Shown: positions 25,839 to 39,574 of the stretch, piece after piece
Position numbering within the stretch: position 1 is the stretch's first letter
Layout: each line of letters opens with the position of its first letter
Assembly (NCBI GenBank): GCA_039679645.1
Contig: JBDKUO010000033.1
Coordinates: forward strand, 1-64,000
Length of the DNA stretch: 64,000 nt
Source: Armatimonadota bacterium
GTDB taxonomy: Bacteria > Armatimonadota > UBA5829
Direction: 5' to 3'
The notes under the pieces: model-generated
The model's input: the letters and a program-made list of their open reading frames with translations, nothing else
Told to the model about the DNA's origin: nothing
The model's database searches: none
Translations under genes and position numbers: made by a program

Positions 25839-26373
25839 TTCCTGCTCCTTCAAAATAGCTGAGGGCTGAGAGTGGAGAGCGAAGAGCCCGAAACCACTGC
25901 TGCCAATCCATACTCCGACAGCAGGACCTTAGAATCCTTCCGAACGCAGATTTGAGAGTTCTTCTGATCGAACGAAGTGAAGGAAGAATTCTTATAAATT
26001 CTTTCATGTATTTTGAGAAAGAATTCTTTAAATTCCTTATTACATGATCCGGGTCAAATATGACCCCCATGGAGACCATTTTTGACCCTCATGGCAGCTT
26101 TTACTGCAACTTTATAAAAGTGATAGGCTTACGTCCTCACCCAACCATTCTCACCCCGGAAGAAGCTACGATCCCTGACACCCATCACCTGTCAAGATTC
26201 CCTGTTCTTTGATACACATCTACAGTTGAGCCAAAAAATGACGATAATCCAACATGTAGGGAGCGTACCCGTAGCACTCCCTATAGTCACGTCGGCGGCA
26301 GTGCGCTGCCTATGTGAGTCTGTCTTGTCCGATAAGGACAGGCGTGCAAGGAAATTGGAGGTCGCGGCAAATA
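25839..26373. other. Intergenic region with several dyads and a direct repeat
   Basis: It separates divergent malic enzyme and pilM. It contains the heptamer array (25852-25886), a hairpin AATTCTTTC (25997-26005) with GAAAGAATT (26017-26025), a palindrome GGGTCA-AATA-TGACCC (26051-26066), a 12-bp direct repeat TGACCCYCATGG at 26061-26072 and 26083-26094, and a stem TAGGGAG/CTCCCTA near 26257-26283. No gene was found. Confidence 0.6.
25852..25886 (-). repeat. Heptamer array upstream of malic enzyme
   Basis: Five contiguous units on the minus strand: CTCTTCG, CTCTCCA, CTCTCAG, CCCTCAG, CTATTTT, then the GAAGGAG ribosome binding site. It belongs to the same family as the arrays at 43844, 52440, 56184 and 59190. 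Confidence 0.75.
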
Positions 26374-27495
26374 GTGCTAAACTCACTCTTTTCTAAAGAG
26401 ACTACCGTTGGAATCGACATTGGCTCGAGCTGCATTAAAGCAGTGGAAATCGAGCCGACCGCACGCGGATGGGAACTGGCTAACGCAGCGGTCACGCCTA
26501 CACCGGCTGATGCAGTCAAGGAAGGTGTTGTCGTCAACATTTTGGATGTTGCTCAGGAAGTGCGCAGCCTGCTCAAAGAAGCCGGCATACACGCCACTGG
26601 AGCCATCTGCGCTATCTCCGGTTCCCAAGTAATAGTGCGCCAGGTGCAATTTCCGAAGATGCCCGAAGCAATTCTTCGGAAGTCGATCAAATATGAGGCC
26701 AGCAAGCATATATCGTCATCAATGGAAGACAGTGTAGTCGAGTTCGAAATACTCTCGGACGTGCCCGATTCTAATGAGATGAATGTAATGCTGGTGGCTG
26801 CGCCGAGCGAGATGGTTGATTCTCGCGTCAAGGTTATGGAGTCCGCGGGACTCGAACCGCGGATGGTTGATATTGAAGCGTTTGCTCTCATCAGATCGCT
26901 CGTCGAGTTCAGCGCATCGGACGAATACCTCCACAAATCGGTTGCACTAATCGATATGGGCGCAAGCCACACAGATGTCAACATAGTCAGCAAAGGCGAT
27001 TTCGCCCTTACCCGCAATATTCCGATAGCCGGCAACAGCTTCACCAATGCCATCAAGTCACTTACCGGCGCATCTTTTGATGACGCGGAGTGCATGAAGA
27101 TAGAGATGGCAAAGGGATATCCGCTGGACCAGATAAGCGCAATGGATGATGAAAATCGGAACTGGAAGGTAGTACAGCCGCTGCTTGATGAGCTGATTCG
27201 AGAGATTCGGCGATCAATCCACTTTTATCAGTCACAGTTCCCGGAAGGCAGCGCCGACACGATGGTCGGCAAGATCGTCCTCACCGGCGGAACTGCCCGT
27301 ATGCCGGGCATGGACGCTTATATGTCCGCAAAACTGAGCATACCCACGGTTATCTCAGAGGTGTTTAAGCAGACAGCCATAAGCACCAATCGAGTTCCTG
27401 AGAGTTTCATAAGCGAGCATGGCCCGATTCTTGCGGTAGGCACAGGACTCGCTTTGAAGGACCTGATTCCCGACGCCAAAAAGGCCGCAGCCTAA
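26374..27495 (+). CDS. pilM: Type IV pilus assembly protein PilM
   Basis: About 373 aa from a GTG at 26374 with GGAGG 12 nt upstream. Actin-like ATPase of the inner-membrane pilus subcomplex. Visible motifs: the phosphate-1 loop VGIDIGSSCIKAVEIEP at the N-terminus, IDMGASHTDVNIV (phosphate 2) and IVLTGGTARMPGM (adenosine loop). PilM binds the cytoplasmic N-terminus of PilN, whose gene follows after a five-unit heptamer array. First gene of a pilMNOPQ operon. Confidence 0.95.
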   Translation: MLNSLFSKETTVGIDIGSSCIKAVEIEPTARGWELANAAVTPTPADAVKEGVVVNILDVAQEVRSLLKEAGIHATGAICAISGSQVIVRQVQFPKMPEAILRKSIKYEASKHISSSMEDSVVEFEILSDVPDSNEMNVMLVAAPSEMVDSRVKVMESAGLEPRMVDIEAFALIRSLVEFSASDEYLHKSVALIDMGASHTDVNIVSKGDFALTRNIPIAGNSFTNAIKSLTGASFDDAECMKIEMAKGYPLDQISAMDDENRNWKVVQPLLDELIREIRRSIHFYQSQFPEGSADTMVGKIVLTGGTARMPGMDAYMSAKLSIPTVISEVFKQTAISTNRVPESFISEHGPILAVGTGLALKDLIPDAKKAAA

Positions 27496-27513
27496 AGCCG
27501 GCAGCCAAATAAT

Positions 27514-27548
27514 AAATATCAAATCTCAAATACTAAATACTAAATTGG
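27514..27548 (+). repeat. AT-rich heptamer array upstream of pilN
   Basis: Five contiguous units: AAATATC, AAATCTC, AAATACT, AAATACT, AAATTGG, followed at once by AAAGGAG. It is related to the arrays at 36244 and 40917. Confidence 0.8.
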
Positions 27549-27561
27549 AAAGGAGTACCTG

Positions 27562-28167
27562 ATGCCTTCCATAAATATGATTGCTCCCAGACGCGCGGAA
27601 AAGCAGCGTTTGGAAAGAGACATGCGCAGACTGGTTCTTGTGATTTTGGCGGAGCTGATCATTGCCGTGGGTCTGGGCGGATGGGCCTGCACAAAGGCAT
27701 ATACCATGCGCATGAGCATCAACCGCCTGGACGCGCAAATTGCCAAGCTTCAACCGGTGGTCAAGGAGATCGAGCAATACGAAAGTGCAACCAAAGAATT
27801 GACCCCCAGGATGGACCTGCTCGCAAACGCGAAAGAGGGCACCATGCGCTGGTATAACTCGCTCGATAAACTAACTCAGAGTCTCGCGTCGTCGACCTAT
27901 CTGACACGCATATCGACTGCGACAGATTCTTCGAGCAAGGACACTCAGTCAACTGTCAGCCTGGCTGGAATTTCCGGCAGCCAAGAACGTGTCGGCGAAA
28001 CGATACTCCGACTGCAAACCATACCCGACTTTGAGAAAGTTGACCTCCACTTCACAAGAAAGATGACAAGCAACTCTCAGAACGGATTTGAGTTTGAGAT
28101 CGGGGCGATTATGAAAGACGGTAAGTCGTCGAAAGGAGTGAGCAGCGATGGCGCAAGTAAGTCTTAG
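27562..28167 (+). CDS. pilN: Type IV pilus assembly protein PilN
   Basis: A 201-aa bitopic inner-membrane protein. The short cytoplasmic N-terminus MPSINMIAPRR carries the conserved IN motif that binds PilM, then a membrane helix (about 24-46), a coiled coil (about 50-85) and a periplasmic ferredoxin-like domain. A good AAAGGAG site precedes the ATG. It overlaps pilO by 20 nt. Confidence 0.92.
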   Translation: MPSINMIAPRRAEKQRLERDMRRLVLVILAELIIAVGLGGWACTKAYTMRMSINRLDAQIAKLQPVVKEIEQYESATKELTPRMDLLANAKEGTMRWYNSLDKLTQSLASSTYLTRISTATDSSSKDTQSTVSLAGISGSQERVGETILRLQTIPDFEKVDLHFTRKMTSNSQNGFEFEIGAIMKDGKSSKGVSSDGASKS

Positions 28168-28903
28168 ACCCAGTTCAAAAGGGGTTACGGCGCTCATAAT
28201 CATCGCGGTTGTAATCTTCTTCGGCTGCGCCCTGGCATATCTTGCAGTTGCGGGAAAGCTTAGAAGCACGGCGGCAGAGATGCAGGCAAAGGGAAAGAAA
28301 GTGGCTCAGAGCAAGGAGATTGCACAGAAGCTTGAGGAATCGAAACTCGACTACCTGGACGCCAGAAGCCAAATTCGCTTTTTGGAGTCGTCGGTTACGA
28401 CTTCCGCCTATGTCCCTACACTTCTCAAGCAGCTTGAATATCTCGGCAAGTCGGTCAATCTCAATGTGATCGGGGTCCGCCCTCAGATGCCCAAGGAACA
28501 ACCGGGAGCAAGAAAGCTCTCGAGCGGCGCTCAAGCTGCTAACGGAAATGTTGAAGCTGCATCCGAACAAAAGACGCAGCCCGGCAGCCCGGTAGCGGCA
28601 AAACAGTCTGCTCCTTATGATGAACTCAATGTCGACATTGAGGTCGAGGGCAAATATATGAACGCGCTCGACTTCTTGTATAAACTCACCAGCTTCCCGA
28701 AGATCATCGCTGTCAAGAGCGTGCAGATGGATCCGGCCGGCAATGAGCAAGATATCAGTTCACCGATATTGAACATAAAAATGAGCATTACGGCGTATGT
28801 CCTAAAAGATGACGCTCCGGTTGTGGCGCCAAATATTCCGGCAGGCGCAGTCACCGGTAAAAATCCGAGCAGTGAAGGGAGGGGCGGCAATGAAGCTGGA
28901 TAA
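28148..28903 (+). CDS. pilO: Type IV pilus assembly protein PilO
   Basis: A 251-aa bitopic membrane protein: one helix (about 13-35), a coiled coil with many Lys/Glu (about 38-75), then a periplasmic domain interrupted by a Ser/Ala/Gln-rich insert (about 120-155). It pairs with PilN in the alignment complex. Overlapping frames with pilN and the next gene show tight translational coupling. Confidence 0.9.
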   Translation: MAQVSLRPSSKGVTALIIIAVVIFFGCALAYLAVAGKLRSTAAEMQAKGKKVAQSKEIAQKLEESKLDYLDARSQIRFLESSVTTSAYVPTLLKQLEYLGKSVNLNVIGVRPQMPKEQPGARKLSSGAQAANGNVEAASEQKTQPGSPVAAKQSAPYDELNVDIEVEGKYMNALDFLYKLTSFPKIIAVKSVQMDPAGNEQDISSPILNIKMSITAYVLKDDAPVVAPNIPAGAVTGKNPSSEGRGGNEAG

Positions 28904-29546
28904 GCAGCAAGTTCCTCAACTTATTGTGCTGGGAGTCCTTGTTTTGATTTGCATAGGCTATGTGTCATTTAAGGTGATGTCGCCGGGCACGAAGCCGCCG
29001 CCCGCACCGGTAAGCAAAGTCAATCATGACGCCGATAAAAATTCTGCGACGGGTGAAAGCGCTGATGCCCAGGTATCGGCTCTCCCGGAAGGGACATTTC
29101 CGAACCTGATGGTCACTCCACCAAGAAGAGACCCGTTTGCTCCGATTGCATCGCTGAACATTGAAAAAGTCACAGCAGCTAAACCTGTCGAAACAACCAG
29201 GCCTTCGACACCCAGGGTTCGCACAGTGTCTTACCCGGCAGTAAGAGTGCCGAAGATCGAAGCAAATCCGTTTAATCCGTTCAGGCAATCAAACACAAAA
29301 CCGATTCATTCCGAACAGATCCAAGTTCAGGAACAAGAGCCGGAATTTGCGCTTACCGGCGTTATCCGCGGTGATCGCAACGTAGCCATAATCCGATCGG
29401 GAGAAAGCGGGCGTTATATCGTTAAGCAAGGCCAGCTCATCGATGGGCGCTACAAAGTTGAATCCGTCTCCGACGACTGCGCAACGCTGGTCTACAAAGG
29501 TCGTCGTATTCACGTGAAATTAGGAGGAGTCAAGAATGCGAGCTAA
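28890..29546 (+). CDS. pilP: PilP-like pilus assembly protein
   Basis: A 218-aa protein from the ATG at 28890, which is preceded by GGGAGGGG; it overlaps pilO by 14 nt. One N-terminal hydrophobic helix (about 9-29) without a lipobox, a proline-rich linker (about 35-140) with the DPFAP motif, and a C-terminal beta domain (about 155-215: FALTGVIRGDRNVAII, YIVKQGQLIDG) like the homology-region domain of PilP and GspC. It links PilNO to the secretin PilQ. Membrane anchoring by a helix instead of a lipid is a deviation from Proteobacterial PilP. Confidence 0.8.
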   Translation: MKLDKQQVPQLIVLGVLVLICIGYVSFKVMSPGTKPPPAPVSKVNHDADKNSATGESADAQVSALPEGTFPNLMVTPPRRDPFAPIASLNIEKVTAAKPVETTRPSTPRVRTVSYPAVRVPKIEANPFNPFRQSNTKPIHSEQIQVQEQEPEFALTGVIRGDRNVAIIRSGESGRYIVKQGQLIDGRYKVESVSDDCATLVYKGRRIHVKLGGVKNAS

Positions 29547-31896
29547 ACTCATCGCCTTCGTGCTGGTCCTTGTCTGTCTGATCTCCAGCGCAGCCTTCGC
29601 AGACAAGGCGATAACCGGAATAAACGTAACAAACAAGCCGGACCGCGTAATCATCAGTGTCCAGGGCAACAGAGCCCTGAAAATGACACCCCTGGTATCG
29701 CCCAGCGGCAGATACGTCGGGTTCCAGTTCCCGTGCAAGCTTATTGCAAAGGGAGGACTCGTCGGAATCCGCTCGGGCAGAATCTATAACATCAGATATT
29801 CGAATTTCACCCCGAACCCGCCGGTGACACGCGTGGTTGCAAATACACGCAGTCATGTGCAGTATTCGACCTCTTGGTCTGATGACAAGAGCCGGGTTGA
29901 GATTACAATATGGAAGAACGGCGTGCCTAAAGCGGCAAGTGCCGCAATTACTAAAGGCACAACATGTTGTTCAGCTATTTCATCCTGCGTGAGCGTCTCC
30001 AGTGTAAAGTCCACGGCTGGAATCCGTGCCGACATGCCCATGCTATACGCCAGCGCAAGCACCAAGGCAATGCCCATTCCATCGGCCAGACCCGCCTTGC
30101 CCATTGCAAAAGTCCTGGGACTGACCGAAGTTGCAGCGACGCCCAGCGTATCGGTGTCGATACCCGTATCGGAAATACCGGAAGACTTTCGCCCGAGGTT
30201 TAGCGACGAGCCGAAGAAAGTAGCCCGCGCCGATACCGGCATGGGTCGGTCCGCTTCGGCTTCCGAAAGAAAGGTCTCGCTCAATTTCCTGGGAGCCGAT
30301 ATTAACGACGTGCTCAAGGCGCTTTCAGTGCAGAGCGGCCACAATATCGTAGCCAGCAAGGACGTAACCGGAAATGTCACCGTGAGCCTGTCGGACGTCA
30401 GCGTGGATTCCGCTCTCGATTATATTGCAAAGCTCAGTGGCTATTCTTACACGAGAGAGGGCGACACTTATCTTGTCGCTTCAAAGGATTCACTCAAGAC
30501 TCTGACGCGCGGAGAGATCGGCGACCCGAAGACCGAAGTCATCAAACTCAGCTATGCAATGGCAGATGATGTAATTGACCTGGTGAAAAACAGATATCCC
30601 AATCTGCAGATCAGCAAGATCGGTGTCGAGCGGACAGCCAGAGTCGGATTATCGAACAATGCGGGCGACTCTTCCATAGCTTTGCGCAACAATCTGCTTG
30701 TTTTGACTGGAACGGAGAGTGAAGTTGAAGCAGCAAAGGACCTCATCGGGCGGTTCGAAGATACTCTGAAGATACAAGTGGTTGAGAGCAAGAGAGCTAT
30801 CTATAGAGTCAAGCATGTCAGCGCCAAGGAACTGGCCAATACCATTGCCACTCTGATCCCCGGCATCGGGATTACGTTCGCTCCTACCGAGGGTTTCGAC
30901 TTGGCCGGTCCCAAGAGCATAAAAGTAGACGAATCCGGCTCGGCAGTATCTCAAGATGATTCTAATAAGGTTCAAAAAGAACAGAATGCGTCCCAGTCGG
31001 CAAGCGACCAGATCGGCCTAATGGGCACTATCGGCAGCCAGGCGGGCACAAGCTCCAAAGTGGTCAGCATTGAAACACGCACCAGACCACTTGCAATTGT
31101 TATAACCGGACGAGAATCGGATGTGGAGAAGGCGTTGAGCCTGGCTAATGAGCTGGACGTAAAATCTCCTCAGATAAACATTGAGGCAAAGATCACCAGC
31201 ATCAATAAAAACGGCGAAGAACAGCTCGGCTTAAAATGGGACTGGAGCGACATATCTTTCGTTGAAGACTTCAGCGCGCCTTTGGTAGTAAATGACCCGG
31301 TACTGGACACCGACGTCGCGATATCCGAGAACGTCAGTGTAAACAGGCCTCTAAAGCGCTGGTTCAGAAAGCCTTTTGATTTTACCGCGACACTTGATGC
31401 TCTGATTCAAAAAGGCAATGCCAAGGTTTTGGCTTCACCGAACCTTGTATGTATGGATGGAAAACCCGGCGTATTCTTTGTCGGCGACGAAGTGACATAT
31501 GTCAGTTCCGTCAGCGCTTCCTCAAGCGGTGAAAAAACCTACCAGACGGATACAAAGCAGGCCGGTGTTCAGCTTCGCGTTGTGGGAAGTGTAAGCCCGG
31601 ATGGATATATTACGCTTAACCTGCATCCCGAGGTCAGCACAATAACGCTTTCAACCGAAGGTGACGTGACTCTGCCGTTGGTTAACAGGCGTTTTACGGA
31701 CCATGTTGTTCGCGTCAAGGACGGAGCGACCATAGTAATCGGCGGACTGATCAGGGACGATGACGTATACTCCATGAGCAAGGTGCCGCTGCTGGGTGAT
31801 CTGCCGTTCTTTGGCAAGCTCTTCAGGCATAAAGAGACATCCAACGATCACACCGAAGTGGTAATGTTTATTACTGCTTCCACGATCAAGGATTAG
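29536..31896 (+). CDS. pilQ: Type IV pilus secretin PilQ
   Basis: A 786-aa outer-membrane secretin. Signal peptide to AAFA/DK; an AMIN peptidoglycan-binding domain (about 25-115); a Ser/Ala/Pro-rich linker with four Cys (about 130-215); N-domains (VSLNFLGADINDVLKALS, ITGRESDVEKAL); and the secretin core with IEAKITSINKNGEEQLGLKWDW and the terminal VPLLGDLPFFGKLF. It forms the pore for the pilus. It overlaps pilP by 11 nt and ends the pilMNOPQ operon at a strong hairpin. Confidence 0.95.
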   Translation: MRAKLIAFVLVLVCLISSAAFADKAITGINVTNKPDRVIISVQGNRALKMTPLVSPSGRYVGFQFPCKLIAKGGLVGIRSGRIYNIRYSNFTPNPPVTRVVANTRSHVQYSTSWSDDKSRVEITIWKNGVPKAASAAITKGTTCCSAISSCVSVSSVKSTAGIRADMPMLYASASTKAMPIPSARPALPIAKVLGLTEVAATPSVSVSIPVSEIPEDFRPRFSDEPKKVARADTGMGRSASASERKVSLNFLGADINDVLKALSVQSGHNIVASKDVTGNVTVSLSDVSVDSALDYIAKLSGYSYTREGDTYLVASKDSLKTLTRGEIGDPKTEVIKLSYAMADDVIDLVKNRYPNLQISKIGVERTARVGLSNNAGDSSIALRNNLLVLTGTESEVEAAKDLIGRFEDTLKIQVVESKRAIYRVKHVSAKELANTIATLIPGIGITFAPTEGFDLAGPKSIKVDESGSAVSQDDSNKVQKEQNASQSASDQIGLMGTIGSQAGTSSKVVSIETRTRPLAIVITGRESDVEKALSLANELDVKSPQINIEAKITSINKNGEEQLGLKWDWSDISFVEDFSAPLVVNDPVLDTDVAISENVSVNRPLKRWFRKPFDFTATLDALIQKGNAKVLASPNLVCMDGKPGVFFVGDEVTYVSSVSASSSGEKTYQTDTKQAGVQLRVVGSVSPDGYITLNLHPEVSTITLSTEGDVTLPLVNRRFTDHVVRVKDGATIVIGGLIRDDDVYSMSKVPLLGDLPFFGKLFRHKETSNDHTEVVMFITASTIKD

Positions 31897-31932
31897 CTAT
31901 CCAGGGCGAGCGCTTATAGCTTCCGCCTGGTG

Positions 31933-31962
31933 CTGCCCCACCGGAAATATCCGGTGGGGCGG
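31933..31962 (+). terminator. Terminator hairpin after pilQ
   Basis: Stem GCCCCACCGG (31935-31944) with CCGGTGGGGC (31951-31960), extended by two more pairs; loop AAATAT, the same loop as at 12693-12698. Confidence 0.75.
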
Positions 31963-32068
31963 CGATGATAACACTTAACATAACGGCACTTTGACCGATA
32001 ATTTAATTGAGACGCTGGCTCTTTTGCAGCTCTCATTTTTTTGACTATGAATTGATGGCATGCATCCT

Positions 32069-32091
32069 CGAAGCGTGCAAGAGACGCTTCG
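32069..32091 (+). promoter_or_regulatory. Hairpin in the pilB leader
   Basis: CGAAGCGT (32069-32076), 7-nt loop, ACGCTTCG (32084-32091), ending 18 nt before the pilB ATG and 7 nt before its site. It could modulate pilB translation. Confidence 0.4.
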
Positions 32092-32109
32092 TGGAGTGTA
32101 GAGGATTGT

Positions 32110-33840
32110 ATGCAGAAGACTGAAGCAATTGGCGAGATATTCTTGAAGCTGGGGATCGTCTCGAGGCAGCAGCTTGACCAGGCGCTGGAAAAGCAAAAGC
32201 TGCTCAAACGACAGGACTCCCTGGGCGATGTTCTTGTGAGTATGGGCCTGATCTCGGAAAAAGACCGGGTCAGGGCGCTTGGCGAACAATGGGGCGTGCC
32301 TTTCGTAGATGTTTCCGAGCTTGAGGTTGAGCCGACTATCGTAAAACTGGTGGCTCAGAACGTGGCGCGAAAGCTCAAAGTTCTGCCTATTGCCAAGAAA
32401 AACGGCAAGCTCACCCTGGCAATGAAGAACCCGCTGGATATCTTCGCCATTGATGAAATACGAATGATGACGGGCGCGGACGTGGAACCCGCGATTGCTC
32501 CTGAAGAGGATATCATAAACGCCATCGGACGGCTATATCGGTCCGGCGCAACCGCTTCAGAGCAGGTGAGCGATGTTATCAAGGAGTTTGACTCCGCCGA
32601 TATAGATTTCACAGGCGGCGAGCACGCAGATGACGAAGAGGATATCTCCATCGAGCAACTCCGGGAGCTTTCGGAAGAGGCTCCGGTCATTAAGCTGGCC
32701 AATCTGATTATAAGTCGCGGCGTCAGCGAGGGAGCAAGCGACATTCATATCGAACCGGGCAAAGAAGCGGTTCGAGTGCGGCTTAGAGTCGACGGCATAT
32801 TACACGAGGCAATGCAGGTGCCGAAGAAAGTTCAGGCATCGCTTACTTCAAGAGTAAAGATAATGGCCGAGATGGACATCGCGACCAAGCGCACCCCGCA
32901 GGACGGCAGAATATCGGCGGTTATCGACGGAAAGCAGTTCGATTTTCGTGTTTCAACATTGCCTTCGGTTTTCGGAGAAAAGATAGTTCTGAGAATCCTG
33001 GACAAGAGCTCGATCTCTATCGGGCTTCATAAGCTGGGACTCTTGCCGGAGACACTTGAAAGGTTCGAGAGCCTTATCTCAAGGACTTACGGAATCATAC
33101 TGGTGACGGGACCAACCGGAAGCGGAAAGTCCACGACTTTATATTCAGTTCTATCAAAATTGAACTCGGGCGAGAAGAATATTCTGACAATCGAGGACCC
33201 TGTCGAATATGAAGTGGCGGGTATTACGCAGGTGCAGATAAATACGCGCGCCGGGCTGACATTTGCATCGGGTCTGAGAACAATGCTCAGGCAGGACCCA
33301 GATATAGCGATGATCGGTGAAATTCGAGACGCGGAAACGGCGACAATCGCGACAGAGGCGGCATTGACAGGCCACCTGGTACTCTCGACTCTGCACACAA
33401 ACGATGCGCCGGGCGCGCTTACTCGAATGGTCGATATGGGAATTGAGCCTTTTCTTATCGCTTCGAGCGTGATCGGCGTGCTGGCTCAAAGGCTCGTGCG
33501 AGTGGTCTGCCCTAAATGCAAGGAACAATATCAGCCGCCGCGCGATGCTATTAAGAGGCTCGGGATAGATGTAGACGGCGACACGCGAGTGAGTTTTTAC
33601 CGGGGCAAGGGATGCGATCACTGCCACGGCAATGGATACAAAGGCAGACTCGGAGTTTATGAGCTTATGCACGTCAACGACCGCATTCGAGACCTTGTGC
33701 TGCAGAAATCATCGGCGCACTTGATTCGTGAGGCAGCGGTCGAAACGGGAATGAAGAGCCTGCGAGATGACGCAATAGCGAAAATTTTACTGGGACAAAC
33801 TACACTTGAGGAATGCCTGCGGGTTATCTATGCGGGATAG
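32110..33840 (+). CDS. pilB: Type IV pilus extension ATPase PilB
   Basis: A 576-aa cytoplasmic hexameric ATPase that powers pilus assembly. The N-terminus has two MshEN-like 24-residue repeats (AIGEIFLKLGIVSRQQLDQAL and SLGDVLVSMGLISEKDRVRAL); in c-di-GMP-binding MshE proteins each starts RLG, but here the Arg is Ala or Ser. ATPase motifs: ASDIHIEPG, Walker A GPTGSGKSTT, Asp box, Walker B IAMIGEIRDAETA, His box GHLVLSTLHTND, and a Zn site with two CxxC pairs (CPKC, CDHC) near the C-terminus. It is followed by pilT and pilC. Confidence 0.95.
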   Translation: MQKTEAIGEIFLKLGIVSRQQLDQALEKQKLLKRQDSLGDVLVSMGLISEKDRVRALGEQWGVPFVDVSELEVEPTIVKLVAQNVARKLKVLPIAKKNGKLTLAMKNPLDIFAIDEIRMMTGADVEPAIAPEEDIINAIGRLYRSGATASEQVSDVIKEFDSADIDFTGGEHADDEEDISIEQLRELSEEAPVIKLANLIISRGVSEGASDIHIEPGKEAVRVRLRVDGILHEAMQVPKKVQASLTSRVKIMAEMDIATKRTPQDGRISAVIDGKQFDFRVSTLPSVFGEKIVLRILDKSSISIGLHKLGLLPETLERFESLISRTYGIILVTGPTGSGKSTTLYSVLSKLNSGEKNILTIEDPVEYEVAGITQVQINTRAGLTFASGLRTMLRQDPDIAMIGEIRDAETATIATEAALTGHLVLSTLHTNDAPGALTRMVDMGIEPFLIASSVIGVLAQRLVRVVCPKCKEQYQPPRDAIKRLGIDVDGDTRVSFYRGKGCDHCHGNGYKGRLGVYELMHVNDRIRDLVLQKSSAHLIREAAVETGMKSLRDDAIAKILLGQTTLEECLRVIYAG

Positions 33841-33870
33841 AAGCGAGACGTGGGAAATGGGAGATTGAAC

Positions 33871-34998
33871 ATGCAGCCGGACACAACATTTGATGATGTT
33901 ATTGGGCAGCCGAACGAATCGACACTTATTCCTATAGAGGAAATGCACATCGACGATCTGCTGCGCAATGTAACTGAAAGGGGAGCATCGGACCTTCACT
34001 TGACAGTCGGCCTGCCGCCGATACTCCGCGTGGACGGTTCGCTTGTACGCACCAACTATCAGCCATTGGGGCCTAGCGACACACAGCGAATCGTATATGA
34101 CATCCTTACAAATGAGCAGGTAGAGAAGTTTGAGCGCACAAAGGAACTCGACTTTTCCTATGGTGTGAAGGGCATAGGCAGGTTTCGTGTGAATGTCTAC
34201 AGGCAGCGAGGAAGTGTTGGGGCAGCGTTGAGATCGATCCCGGATCAGATTCCCACATTCGAGCAGCTCGGACTTCCGCCGATCTTGAGGGAACTGACCA
34301 AGAAGCACAGCGGGTTGATTCTGGTTACAGGCCCGACCGGAAGCGGCAAATCGACCACCATCGCATGCATGATCGACACCATCAACAGTGAGAACCCGGT
34401 GCATATTATGACCATGGAGGACCCGATAGAGTATCTCCACCGGCACAAGAGAGGGATGGTCAACCAGCGCGAACTCGGTCAGGATACTGACGCATTCGGT
34501 AACGCACTGCGTGCCGTGCTGCGCGAAGACCCAGACGTGATCCTCATAGGAGAAATGCGCGACCTTGAGACCATTTCCGCCGCGCTGACACTTGCGGAGA
34601 CAGGCCACCTTGTTTTCGGCACACTGCACACAAGGTGCGCGCCACAGACCATAGACCGTGTTGTCGACGTCTTTCCGCCGCACCAGCAGGACCAGATAAG
34701 GGTGCAGCTCTCCAACACTATCGAATCTGTCGTGGCGCAGCAGCTTTTGCCGCGGACCGGCGGAGGCAGATGTGCGGCCATCGAGATTATGGTTGCCACC
34801 AGCGCTATCAGAAACCTGATACGTGAAGGCAAGACCTATCAGATTTACAGCGCCCTGGAAACAGGCGCGCAGTTCGGTATGCAGACTATGGATAGACAGC
34901 TCTCCGATATGCATCGGATGGGCTATATATCCCAGGAAGAAGCGCTTTCACGCGCTATCGACAGAGAAAACCTGAAAAGATTGATCCAGGGAGGTTAA
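33871..34998 (+). CDS. pilT: Type IV pilus retraction ATPase PilT
   Basis: A 375-aa cytoplasmic hexameric ATPase that depolymerises the pilus. The start at 33871 follows GGGAG; a GTG at 33850 lies within a heptamer-like run. Motifs: ASDLHLTVGLPP, Walker A GPTGSGKSTT, Walker B DVILIGEMRDLET, His box GHLVFGTLHT, and the PilT hallmark AIRNLIREGK near residue 310. A canonical paralogue of pilB, 30 nt downstream of it. Confidence 0.95.
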   Translation: MQPDTTFDDVIGQPNESTLIPIEEMHIDDLLRNVTERGASDLHLTVGLPPILRVDGSLVRTNYQPLGPSDTQRIVYDILTNEQVEKFERTKELDFSYGVKGIGRFRVNVYRQRGSVGAALRSIPDQIPTFEQLGLPPILRELTKKHSGLILVTGPTGSGKSTTIACMIDTINSENPVHIMTMEDPIEYLHRHKRGMVNQRELGQDTDAFGNALRAVLREDPDVILIGEMRDLETISAALTLAETGHLVFGTLHTRCAPQTIDRVVDVFPPHQQDQIRVQLSNTIESVVAQQLLPRTGGGRCAAIEIMVATSAIRNLIREGKTYQIYSALETGAQFGMQTMDRQLSDMHRMGYISQEEALSRAIDRENLKRLIQGG

Positions 34999-35004
34999 GC
35001 AAAT

Positions 35005-36219
35005 ATGTCAACCTTTGTCTATTCTGCTCTGGACCCGAGCGGTAAAACCGTCAAGGGAAAAGTGGATGCAGAGAGCGAACAGTTAGTGCTCTCCAAACTT
35101 CATGAACAGAGATATCATATACTTTCGATCAATGAAGAGAAGTCGCGCACAAAGACTGTGTCGAGCTCTACGATTCCGAAAGGAAAAGTCAAGCTCAATG
35201 ACATGGTGATATTCAGCCGCCAGTTCGCGACTATGATCGACGCAGGTATAGCCATCGTCAGGTGTCTGGATATCCTGGAGGGTCAGACCAAGGACCCGGT
35301 CCTGAAACCCGTAATCGCACAGTGCAAAAAAGACGTCAAGGGCGGCTTGAGCCTTACAGACGCCTTCGGCAAGCACCCGAACGTGTTCTCGCGATTGTAT
35401 GTGAACATGGTCAAGGCAGCGGAGACCGGCGGTATTCTTGACAAGATTCTCGAAAGGCTCTCGGGATTTCTTGAAAGCGAACAGGAGATACGCGGCAAGA
35501 TCAAATCGGCTATGGTCTACCCGATATTGGTCTTGAGTTTCGCCGTGATCATGGTTATTGCGCTCTTTTTGTTCGTCCTGCCGAAGTTTAAGGAAATCTT
35601 CGACTCGATGGGTGTAGAGATGCCTGCTGCAACCAAGATGCTCTTTGCCCTGAGTGATATCGCGGTGAAGTTCTGGTATTTGGCGCCGATCCTGATTGTG
35701 GGCGGAGGATTTGCCTATAAGTGGTATAAGGGCACAGAAAGCGGCGCATGGCAGATCGACATGCTGAAGCTAAAGTTTCCGGTTATAGGCGAACTCGTGC
35801 AGAAAATGGCAATCTCGCGCTTCTCACGCACGTTCGCTACACTGATTGCCAGTGGTGTTCCGATGATGCGTTCACTGGAGATAGTGGGAGAGACATCGGG
35901 CAATCGTGTAATTGCACACACGATAGAAAGCGCCAGAAACGCGATCAGGGAAGGACAGAAGATCAGCACTCCGTTGGCGGTAAGCGGACTTTTCCCGGCA
36001 ATGGTCACGCATATGATCGACATCGGAGAAGAGACCGGCAGACTCTCAGAGATGCTTGCCAAAGTTTCCGACTTTTACGATCAGGAGGTCGATAATGCCG
36101 TCAAGGGCCTGACCTCTATGATCGAGCCTTGTCTGATCGTTATGATGGGCGGCCTGGTCGGTTTTATCGCTATCTCTATCATGGCGCCTATATTCAAGCT
36201 GATCAGCTCGGTAAGTTAA
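35005..36219 (+). CDS. pilC: Type IV pilus inner-membrane platform protein PilC
   Basis: A 404-aa GspF/PilC family protein, 6 nt after pilT. Two repeated cytoplasmic helical domains (FSRQFATMIDAGI and FSRTFATLIASGVPM) with membrane helices around 170-195, 225-245 and 375-400. It connects the motor ATPases to the growing pilus. FVYSALDPSGKTVKG is the normal N-terminus of the family. Confidence 0.95.
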   Translation: MSTFVYSALDPSGKTVKGKVDAESEQLVLSKLHEQRYHILSINEEKSRTKTVSSSTIPKGKVKLNDMVIFSRQFATMIDAGIAIVRCLDILEGQTKDPVLKPVIAQCKKDVKGGLSLTDAFGKHPNVFSRLYVNMVKAAETGGILDKILERLSGFLESEQEIRGKIKSAMVYPILVLSFAVIMVIALFLFVLPKFKEIFDSMGVEMPAATKMLFALSDIAVKFWYLAPILIVGGGFAYKWYKGTESGAWQIDMLKLKFPVIGELVQKMAISRFSRTFATLIASGVPMMRSLEIVGETSGNRVIAHTIESARNAIREGQKISTPLAVSGLFPAMVTHMIDIGEETGRLSEMLAKVSDFYDQEVDNAVKGLTSMIEPCLIVMMGGLVGFIAISIMAPIFKLISSVS

Positions 36220-36285: not shown

Positions 36286-36302
36286 ATCTTGTGAGGAAAA
36301 AC

Positions 36303-37646
36303 ATGCGGATGGGAAGCAGCCGAAAATTAAGCGAAGATGAAATCCAGGATCGCCTGACCCAATATGCGCAGAATCCGGATTCTAAAATAAGGGACGAGAT
36401 AGTCCTTCAATATGCCAACCTGGTCGAAAGCATTGGCCGGAGGTTCATGGGCGCTTGCGAGCCTCTGGAAGACTTGGTCCAGGAAGGATATGTTGGGCTG
36501 ATCACATCCGTTGATAAATATGACGGCGATAAGGGCGTCAAATTCTCTACATATGCGACTCACTTCATCGTCGGTCAGATCAAACACTACCTGCGCGATA
36601 AGGGTAAAATAATCAAAGAACCCGCATGGCTGCAGGAACTCAATCAGAAGATGACTCGCGTGATCGAATCGTTGAACCAGCAGCACAATCGGCAGCCCAA
36701 TGAAAAAGAGATTGCCGAGATGATGCAGATGCCGGAAAGCACGGTGCGCGAGATGCTGACCACGCGTGAGGTGTTTAAGGTGACCTCGCTCGACGGTGAA
36801 AAAGACGAAGGCTCAGGCCCTAAAGAGGAAGAGAAGGTCTCGGACCAGAAGCTGGTCACGTTCCAACTTCCGCTGGAAGATAAGATCGTTTTGGAGTCCG
36901 CACTCGATCGGCTCAAGGATATCGAGCAGCAAGTGATTGCTGATCATTTCTATAAGGGACTTAATCAGACCGAAATAGCGAAAAAGCTGGACATAAGCTG
37001 CAACTACGTCTCGCACATTCTGCGCAACGGCACAAAGAAGCTTCGCAAGATCCTTGCGACCGACGAGATCCGAGACGCGCAAATGCAGCGCACGCATATA
37101 TCCAAGCGTAAACCAGGTGAAAATACAGCCGATTCGATGAGCGTGATCGACTCCACCACAGGACTCTACAATCGCCAATATTTCCTGGAGAGACTCAACG
37201 AGGAGATCAGCCGGGCTTATCGCGACAACCATAAGCTCTCCATCCTGCTGCTGGATGTTCAGTTGCCTGATGATCTGGACCGGTGTGTGCGCATGGTCCG
37301 GATGGATGACTACCTGTACAACTTGGGGCAGGCTATGCGTGAACAAGTGCGCAAGATGGATCTTGTAGCCCGCTTTGGTGAGACCTCGTTCGCATTCCTG
37401 CTTCCGCACACGGCTACCCACGCGCAGCATGTGGCGGACAGAATCTCCGGGATCGTCGGATCTACCGGAATGGAATCCGGTCGAAAAGGCTCCAAAGTGA
37501 TCGGCTCTGCTAACGTGGGAATAGCAAAATATCCGGCGGACGCATTCACTGCCGAGGACATGCTCGAAAAAGCATTGAAAAACATGGGCCTTACCCTGGG
37601 ACAACTGACTGGCGAAAATAGACCTCAGCTAAAGAAAGCTGCATGA
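36303..37646 (+). CDS. Sigma-70 family factor fused to a degenerate GGDEF domain
   Basis: About 447 aa from the ATG at 36303 behind GAGG. The N-terminal part is a SigB/SigF/WhiG-type sigma factor: region 2 (about 30-105: EPLEDLVQEGYVGLITSVDKYD, FSTYATHFIVGQIKHYLRDKG), region 3 (about 105-155) and region 4 HTH (about 200-250: LNQTEIAKKLDISCNYVSHIL). The C-terminal part (about 280-430) has the GGDEF-domain opening STTGLYNRQYFLERL and LSILLLDVQL, then RFGETSFAFLLP where active cyclases have RYGGDEFA. The signature is therefore GETSF (about 359-363) and synthesis of c-di-GMP is unlikely; ligand binding or dimerisation remains possible. It lies just after pilC, so pilus genes are plausible targets. 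Confidence 0.9.
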   Translation: MRMGSSRKLSEDEIQDRLTQYAQNPDSKIRDEIVLQYANLVESIGRRFMGACEPLEDLVQEGYVGLITSVDKYDGDKGVKFSTYATHFIVGQIKHYLRDKGKIIKEPAWLQELNQKMTRVIESLNQQHNRQPNEKEIAEMMQMPESTVREMLTTREVFKVTSLDGEKDEGSGPKEEEKVSDQKLVTFQLPLEDKIVLESALDRLKDIEQQVIADHFYKGLNQTEIAKKLDISCNYVSHILRNGTKKLRKILATDEIRDAQMQRTHISKRKPGENTADSMSVIDSTTGLYNRQYFLERLNEEISRAYRDNHKLSILLLDVQLPDDLDRCVRMVRMDDYLYNLGQAMREQVRKMDLVARFGETSFAFLLPHTATHAQHVADRISGIVGSTGMESGRKGSKVIGSANVGIAKYPADAFTAEDMLEKALKNMGLTLGQLTGENRPQLKKAA

Positions 37647-37768: not shown

Positions 37769-39574
37769 TTGAACGCCGATGCAAAATCCCACCAAGCGCA
37801 AATAGAAGAGCTTGAAAGGCAGCTAAAGGAAAAAGATGTAGCCATTGGCGCACTTGAACAGGCCAACAAGCGTCTTGAAGAACGCCTTAAGGAAAATGAA
37901 GCGGGCGCATCCGGCCCGACACCCCTTACAGAACTTGAAGAGACACTTAAACGCCTGGTGACCAGGATCAGCATGATCCTTCAGGCCGAAAAGTGCGTCT
38001 TCATGCTTTTTGACAAGGATTCAGGTGAGCTTCAGGCAGCAAAGCCCGGTGTCGGCATCTCCGACGAACAGATCAAACTCTTCAAAGTCTCCGCAACGGA
38101 TGGAGTCTCAGGCGAGGTGTTCAGAGGGCAGAAACCGATAATCCTCTATGATGCTATCAACGATCCGCGCACGGTTAAAGAGAGCGTAGCTCTGCTTGGA
38201 ATAACTAACGGCGTTTGTGTGCCCCTGGTAATCGAAAAGCGCGACGAAGACACCAACAAGATCCTGGAACGCAAGATTATCGGCACCATGTGGGTCTTCA
38301 ACAAGCGCTACGGCAACGTTTTCATCCAGGAAGACGTAAACCTCCTCGACAGGCTCTCGCGCAACGCGGCTTCGGTCATCGCGAGCGCGCAGATGTATCG
38401 CGAGGTCGTCAAAGAGAAAGAAGAGCTCGAACACGTAATCGAGAGCGTATATGCCGGTATCATAATGGTCCACAACAGCGGCAGGCTGATGCAGGTGAAT
38501 CCATCGGCGCGAGAAATGCTGGGGCTTGACGATGATACAAAACTCGCAGGCGATTACAAGACCGCAATTGAAAACGAAATCATTCGAGACGTAATAACCA
38601 AAGCCTTTGAAGAAACCAGCGAGGTACAGGAGGAAATATCACTTCCTGATTTCAACTCCGAAGAAGAGGGAGCTGAACGCTTTTATCAAGTCCAGACAGC
38701 CATCGTAAAAAGTGAGGACCAGTCTAACATCGGGATAGTCGCCATCTTTAACGATATAACCGACATTCGCGCTATCGAGAGGATGAAGACGGCATTTGTC
38801 TCAACAGTCTCTCACGAGCTGCGCACACCGCTCACCTCCATCAAAGGTTTCATATCCACTCTGCTTCAGGACACTGAAGGATTCTATGATAAGGATACGG
38901 TCCACGAATTCTACACAATTATCGACCAGGAATGCGACCGTCTGACAAGACTTATCAGCGACCTGCTCAACGTCTCCAGGATTGAAGCAGGACGCGCTCT
39001 GGACCTCAACCCCGAGCCGGTCAACGTTACGGATGCGGTCGAAAGAGTAGTCGCGGTCCAAAGGTCATACACCACTAAGCATCAGATCGAGATGGATCTC
39101 GACGACGATATGCCGACCATTGTGGCTGACCAGGACAAGTTCGTCCAGATCCTTACAAACCTCACCAATAACGCTATCAAATACTCGCCCAACGGCGGCA
39201 CGGTCACCGTTAAAGGCAGGAAACTCGACGGCAAGATCCGTATGTCCATTGAGGACCAGGGTATGGGCATTCCCAAGGAACACCTGCCCAAGGTATTTGA
39301 CCGGTTCCACCGAGTCGATAACCGCGACACACGCAAAGTCGGCGGCACTGGAATCGGCCTCTATCTGGTCAAGCACTTCGTCGAGGCGCACGGCGGCAAG
39401 ATATGGGTCGAAAGCGAAGTCGGAGTAGGCTCGCAGTTCATCTTTGAGATGCCGCTTTGCCCGCCGCAGTTTGTCGAAGAGATGATGGAAAACGACGGCA
39501 ATAGCGGGACCAAAAGTGACCAGCCCGGAATGCGACCGAAGAACATCGGAGAAGAAGCGCCCGCGGCAAATTAG
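37769..39574 (+). CDS. GAF-PAS sensor histidine kinase
   Basis: A 601-aa protein with a TTG start at 37769 (GAGG 9 nt upstream; no nearby ATG). An N-terminal coiled coil (about 8-45) leads to a GAF domain (about 55-210), a PAS domain (about 215-335), HisKA with FVSTVSHELRTPLTS (phosphoacceptor H349) and HATPase_c with N box (NLTNNAIKYSPNGG), G1 (DQGMGIP) and G2 (GGTGIGLYLV). No transmembrane helices, so it is a cytosolic sensor. The partner regulator is not adjacent; an OmpR-type regulator is 11 kb away. Confidence 0.92.
   Translation: MNADAKSHQAQIEELERQLKEKDVAIGALEQANKRLEERLKENEAGASGPTPLTELEETLKRLVTRISMILQAEKCVFMLFDKDSGELQAAKPGVGISDEQIKLFKVSATDGVSGEVFRGQKPIILYDAINDPRTVKESVALLGITNGVCVPLVIEKRDEDTNKILERKIIGTMWVFNKRYGNVFIQEDVNLLDRLSRNAASVIASAQMYREVVKEKEELEHVIESVYAGIIMVHNSGRLMQVNPSAREMLGLDDDTKLAGDYKTAIENEIIRDVITKAFEETSEVQEEISLPDFNSEEEGAERFYQVQTAIVKSEDQSNIGIVAIFNDITDIRAIERMKTAFVSTVSHELRTPLTSIKGFISTLLQDTEGFYDKDTVHEFYTIIDQECDRLTRLISDLLNVSRIEAGRALDLNPEPVNVTDAVERVVAVQRSYTTKHQIEMDLDDDMPTIVADQDKFVQILTNLTNNAIKYSPNGGTVTVKGRKLDGKIRMSIEDQGMGIPKEHLPKVFDRFHRVDNRDTRKVGGTGIGLYLVKHFVEAHGGKIWVESEVGVGSQFIFEMPLCPPQFVEEMMENDGNSGTKSDQPGMRPKNIGEEAPAAN

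Follow-up and report, generated by a model that had tools for sequence, protein, structure and literature searches.

We assign a probability of about two in three to the reading that the Armatimonadota gene described here encodes a group 3 sigma factor with its own c-di-GMP receptor, a C-terminal GGDEF domain that would neither catalyse nor bind substrate and that has kept the whole I-site. With odds a little better than even, the sigma factor itself would be the c-di-GMP receptor of a one-protein switch from second messenger to promoter; the switch would be ancient in the phylum, linked to type IV pili and would need no anti-sigma factor. The features are listed in Table 1; the window is the whole stretch of 64,000 nucleotides that was analysed.

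Table 1. Features of the fusion gene and of the pilus operon, with positions in the window
Feature	Positions	Strand	Basis or remark
pilM-pilN-pilO-pilP-pilQ-pilB-pilT-pilC, type IV pilus genes directly upstream	26314-36219	+	Order and sequence; PilM by Pfam
RBS-like GAGG, a few bases 5' of the ATG start at 36303	36292-36296	+	Read in the sequence
Sigma-GGDEF fusion gene	36303-37646	+	447 aa, single uninterrupted gene
Sigma-70 region 2, residues 34-102	36402-36608	+	Pfam Sigma70_r2, 61.6 bits
Sigma-70 region 3, residues 112-162	36636-36788	+	Pfam r3, 42.5 bits
Sigma-70 region 4, residues 200-249	36900-37049	+	Pfam r4, 58.0 bits
Linker, residues 250-280	37050-37142	+	Structure model
Degenerate GGDEF domain, residues 281-428	37143-37586	+	Pfam GGDEF, 76.1 bits; fold models
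I-site R304 (PleD R313)	37212-37214	+	61/61 fusions
I-site RxxD motif R350-K-M-D353 (PleD R359, D362)	37350-37361	+	60/61 fusions each
Degenerate signature GETSF, residues 359-363	37377-37391	+	Replaces GG[DE]EF of active cyclases
I-site R380 (PleD R390)	37440-37442	+	60/61 fusions

One frame joins a sigma factor to a degenerate GGDEF domain

The original prediction had read one frame with sigma regions 2, 3 and 4 followed by a GGDEF-like domain with the signature GETSF. Translation gave this stop-free frame, and Pfam confirmed the order, the matches to r2, r3, r4 and GGDEF each lying over the curated cut-off (23.8 bits for GGDEF). Across 61 fusions, sigma region 2 had a mean column identity of 73%.

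The fold of the C-terminal part was analysed by structure prediction. Residues 258-447 modelled alone with AlphaFold gave a pLDDT of 86.5 and a pTM of 0.80. Foldseek matched this model to the GGDEF structure 4urs (E 2e-14), and VIA-align superimposed it on 4urg_A with a Z of 18.9 and 2.6 Å over 148 residues; among the solved GGDEF domains that matched is PleD with bound c-di-GMP. The original prediction would have fallen if the C-terminal part were not a GGDEF fold, but the Pfam profile, the model and the structure matches all agree on one. When the full-length protein was modelled with 35 orthologues, the pLDDT was about 90 across most of residues 281-430. The last helix of region 4 was predicted to continue to about residue 267 and was followed by a low-confidence stretch (267-275).

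The sigma part contains regions 2, 3 and 4 and lacks region 1.1, as is the case for group 3 sigma-70 factors, and the sigma chain 8x6g_H aligns to residues 5-249. The best NCBIfam match was SigB/SigF/SigG TIGR02980 with 174.9 bits (E 2e-51). Because this score lies under the curated cut-off of 234.35, the sequence points to a lineage related to the SigB/SigF/SigG group 3 family, not to a member of it. With FliA/WhiG TIGR02479 the fusion scored 115.9 to 117.7 bits and did not reach the cut-off of 189.6. Two other genes of the host genome pass TIGR02479, and one of them sits among flagellar genes.

The fusion is an old gene of the phylum

Sixty genomes related to the host were searched with the fusion protein. 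Full-length orthologues with an open frame were found, their identity falling from 93% within the genus to about 35% across other families. A profile built from 35 members matched in 206 of 291 Armatimonadota genomes at E 1e-60, and about 185 of the 291, counted from the match list, carry the fusion at E <1e-100, the range of full-length matches. Sixty-one members from many families were read and aligned, and the frame was open across the sigma-GGDEF junction in every orthologue read.

Since about 185 genomes share the open fusion, down to about 35% identity, we regard it as an old gene, ancient in the phylum, and not as an artefact. A sequencing frameshift or a mis-assembly that joined two separate genes had been named beforehand as what could undo the prediction. 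The many independent orthologues led us to reject it: the identical open fusion stood in all orthologous loci read, and the chance of an artefact is negligible.

A scan of GTDB contigs with peptides of close relatives as queries returned four loci, all from close relatives. Spread by plasmids was also rejected, since no plasmid record covered at least 80% of the fusion protein.

The active site is lost and the I-site is kept

The 61 fusions were aligned with 30 active GGDEF domains of the same phylum and with PleD, whose reference sequence agrees letter for letter with the PDB chains. In PleD, c-di-GMP at the I-site is contacted by R359, D362 and R390 and by R313 of the neighbouring chain, whereas the active site includes, among others, D327, F331, K332, N335, D344, E370, K442 and R446 (PMC7288161, PMC12943098).

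None of the 61 fusions has GG[DE]EF. The metal ligand D327 was kept in 11 of them, K332 in five, N335 in two and K442 in one; the same residues were present in 29 to 30 of the 30 active domains, which were chosen by their intact signature and therefore score high at the active site, though not at the I-site, by construction. Each fusion has at most four of nine key active-site residues, usually none to two. The set that marks an active diguanylate cyclase, the signature together with the metal, guanine and phosphate ligands, was not found in the fusions.

A degenerate GGDEF domain that binds GTP is known in CC3396 (PMC7288161), and the fused domain could likewise sense GTP or another nucleotide in its active site, or could be an unusual active cyclase. 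D335, the equivalent of PleD D344, is kept in 31 of the 61 fusions. However, nearly all members lack the metal, guanine, phosphate and signature residues. The loss of most guanine and phosphate ligands makes GTP sensing unlikely. With the active site lost, we rejected the GTP sensor and the active cyclase, which together appear very improbable.

The I-site gave the opposite picture. R304, R350, D353 and R380 were the top four in conservation among 172 C-terminal positions of the 61 fusions, a coincidence with a chance of about 1 in 35 million under random ranking of positions. In a separate alignment of 35 rows, the only invariant C-terminal columns were R304, R350 and R380. The complete four-residue I-site was present in 58 of the 61 fusions and in 14 of the 30 active domains. 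Since the I-site is near-invariant and the active-site residues are mostly lost, selection appears to have kept the ligand-binding side and to have discarded catalysis. This conservation pattern resembles that of the c-di-GMP receptor pseudo-cyclases PopA, PelD and BcsE, and sequence and models together point to a pseudo-GGDEF receptor with a GGDEF fold, a dead active site and a complete I-site. The proposal that the sigma factor itself senses a ligand is strengthened by the conserved I-site and the lost active site, but GTP is unlikely to be that ligand.

Some points weigh on the receptor reading. The RxxD motif also occurs in active cyclases, where the equivalents of R359 and D362 were each found in 28 of 30, and its conservation may be partly inherited or structural. 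The equivalents of R313 and R390 were less common there (19 and 22 of 30). The invariance of R304 in the fusions, compared with about two thirds of the active domains, hints at a c-di-GMP that joins two chains; its counterpart R313 in PleD reaches over to the other GGDEF domain (PMC7288161, PMC12943098). Against a receptor, the C-terminal domain is strongly diverged and apparently decaying in two members of family f9 (L071 and L072), which retain the sigma part. In L072 the arginine that corresponds to R350 of the I-site is gone.

We also considered that the GGDEF remnant is a structural or protein-protein module for dimerisation or docking, in which the I-site arginines serve folding or contact a protein partner and not c-di-GMP. 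Degenerate GGDEF domains are able to act as interaction modules, and the conserved residues E300, E301, Y289 and LPHTG outside the I-site suggest a second conserved surface. However, the four top positions coincide exactly with the four residues by which PleD contacts its ligand, against a mean column identity of 41% in the GGDEF domain outside the I-site, and none of the three genomes devoid of GGDEF has the fusion. This explanation is therefore unlikely, and we favour the c-di-GMP receptor.

The family-specific residues Y289, Y293, E300 and E301 (residues 289-301; window 37167-37205) and LPHTG (residues 367-371; window 37401-37415) are rare in active GGDEF domains. They possibly form a contact surface to the sigma part or to a partner.

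The fusion lies in a pilus context

The fusion starts 84 bases past pilC, the last gene of the pil operon. In about 30 of 40 readable loci from many families, a pil gene is located directly upstream on the same strand; at these loci the preceding gene is pilC or, in two of them, a secretin gene. At one further locus the fusion is divergent and adjoins pilT-pilC. The linkage is absent at L035-L038 and a few other loci, a point against the favoured reading.

Within the class, the fusion and a strong full-length PilM occur together in 21 genomes and are both missing from six; a further genome, 69% complete, has PilM only. The hypergeometric probability of this co-occurrence is about 2e-5, calculated by hand and ignoring phylogeny; both genes could be lost in a single deletion. 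Genomes with the fusion have a median of 8 other GGDEF genes versus 3 in those without it (p about 1e-6, ignoring phylogeny). The host genome encodes c-di-GMP machinery with nine GGDEF matches including the fusion, two EAL and one PilZ, and the presence of this machinery, like the higher number of other GGDEF genes, is in favour of a c-di-GMP receptor. Two of the GGDEF matches, L007 and L005 (G000:C3:6088-8061), are neighbours on the same strand, and one of them is weak.

Directly 3' of the fusion, a GAF-PAS-HisKA-HATPase histidine kinase is encoded (window 37769-39574). It was rejected as an obligatory partner, as it is kept only in the nearest relative (L053). A riboswitch was rejected because Rfam gave no match in the whole window.

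Promoter elements were then compared. The block TACAGTTG-N11-GACGATAA upstream of pilM (window 26222-26248) recurs before pilM in about ten relatives and is the sole conserved promoter-like block there. It fits, with exact spacing, the FliA-type consensus TAAAGTTT-N11-GCCGATAA. For promoters of the FliA/WhiG type, a -10 element GCCGATAA and a -35 element TAAA have been described (PMC8325347). Genome-wide, the FliA-type pattern was not enriched, with 7 matches versus 10 in the reversed control. The SigB-type pattern had 8 matches in the window versus 4.0 expected, a number reached in 2 of 100 shuffles; none of the matches in the window was near the pil genes.

Since the pilM block is FliA/WhiG-like and the host genome has two FliA/WhiG-type genes, the case that the fusion initiates at the pilM promoter is weakened. 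The conserved element could be used by the other sigma factors of the host, and by analogy with Rubrobacter the pil genes of the family may depend on a sigma factor of the flagellar type. The pil genes had originally been proposed as candidate targets. A link to type IV pili is strengthened: the fusion lies behind pilC in distant families and, in the class, is absent together with the operon-type PilM. The only conserved promoter-like block before pilM, however, resembles the FliA/WhiG type. Because the fusion is conserved in the pil operon, surface structures are likely targets, and the regulon probably consists of pili or other surface-programme genes.

How c-di-GMP might control the sigma factor

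In the most likely reading, bound c-di-GMP would switch the sigma factor without a separate anti-sigma factor. c-di-GMP made elsewhere in the cell would reach the C-terminal I-site, probably as the intercalated dimer, the form that I-sites bind. It would dock on R350, D353 and R380 of one chain and R304 of another. Docking would either tie two C-terminal domains together or fix the domain on the sigma part via the helix continuing from region 4, and this pairing or locking would alter the entry of the sigma factor into RNA polymerase. A single chain would thus be both sigma factor and c-di-GMP-dependent regulator. The full-length AlphaFold model speaks against this in that it shows no fixed packing of the C-terminal domain on the sigma part (pTM 0.41).

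No RsbW/SpoIIAB-type anti-sigma kinase was found beside the fusion. This favours an on-board receptor and differs from the plain SigB-like paralogue L124 (G000:C52:5000-8500), which lies behind RsbV- and RsbW-like genes. A loose pattern scan for the RsiG motif gave no match in the open frames at three loci other than that of the fusion. The L124 sigma gene directly precedes a second PilT-like gene and is thus a second sigma gene adjoining a pilus motor gene.

Bound c-di-GMP may hold the sigma factor inactive, like an on-board anti-sigma factor. By analogy, and with low confidence, we consider this slightly more likely than activation, because ligand binding is inhibitory both in RsiG-WhiG, the closest analogue, and in OrbS with its on-board sensor (PMC8325347, PMC9023288). 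Alternatively, c-di-GMP binds and activates, and pairing or opening would aid the joining of the polymerase or cooperative promoter binding, so that pilus and adhesion genes go up at high c-di-GMP. c-di-GMP often favours surface attachment, which is a point for activation. The fused C-terminal domains of ECF41 factors, which are thought to be opened by their ligand, are another (PMC9023288). Given the two inhibitory precedents, activation is slightly less likely.

Comparison with known systems

The degenerate GGDEF domains of PopA and PelD (PMC10333796) and of BcsE (PMC7439463) contain RxxD and are proven c-di-GMP receptors. Like the fusion, they combine the GGDEF fold and a dead active site with a retained RxxD I-site. 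PopA acts in proteolysis, PelD in Pel polysaccharide synthesis and BcsE in cellulose secretion, and unlike the fusion none of the three has a sigma factor on its chain.

As a rule, a sigma factor is regulated by partner proteins on other chains. In ECF41, ECF42, ECF56 and OrbS, as in the fusion, a C-terminal domain of the same chain replaces or supplements the anti-sigma factor (PMC9023288, PMC7730460). All four belong to group 4 (ECF), their extensions are of the SnoaL, TPR or iron-binding kind, and none of them has a second-messenger receptor. From SigB/SigF/SigG (TIGR02980), its best family match, the fusion differs by its score under the cut-off, its GGDEF domain and the lack of an adjoining RsbW/SpoIIAB-type gene.

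By analogy, we regard RsiG-WhiG as the nearest known relative in function. In the RsiG-(c-di-GMP)2-WhiG complex of Streptomyces and Rubrobacter, a group 3 sigma factor is under c-di-GMP, as we propose for the fusion. The Rubrobacter output is type IV pili, and among sigma-anti-sigma complexes RsiG-WhiG has been described as the only one known to be a c-di-GMP target (PMC8325347). RsiG is a separate coiled-coil anti-sigma factor that binds c-di-GMP with E(X)3S(X)2R(X)3Q(X)3D motifs, whereas the fusion carries a GGDEF I-site on the sigma factor. Its partner is WhiG, whereas the sigma part of the fusion is SigB/F/G-like, and the phyla differ.

In agreement with the original prediction, which knew of no well-described example, full-text searches across 5.4 million open-access papers turned up no description of a single chain that combines a sigma factor with a GGDEF domain. 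Each part has a precedent: pseudo-GGDEF receptors, C-terminally extended sigma factors and a c-di-GMP-controlled group 3 sigma factor acting on type IV pili. If the binding is true, the fusion would be a compact and testable part and, next to RsiG-WhiG, a second, independently evolved route by which c-di-GMP acts directly on promoter choice.
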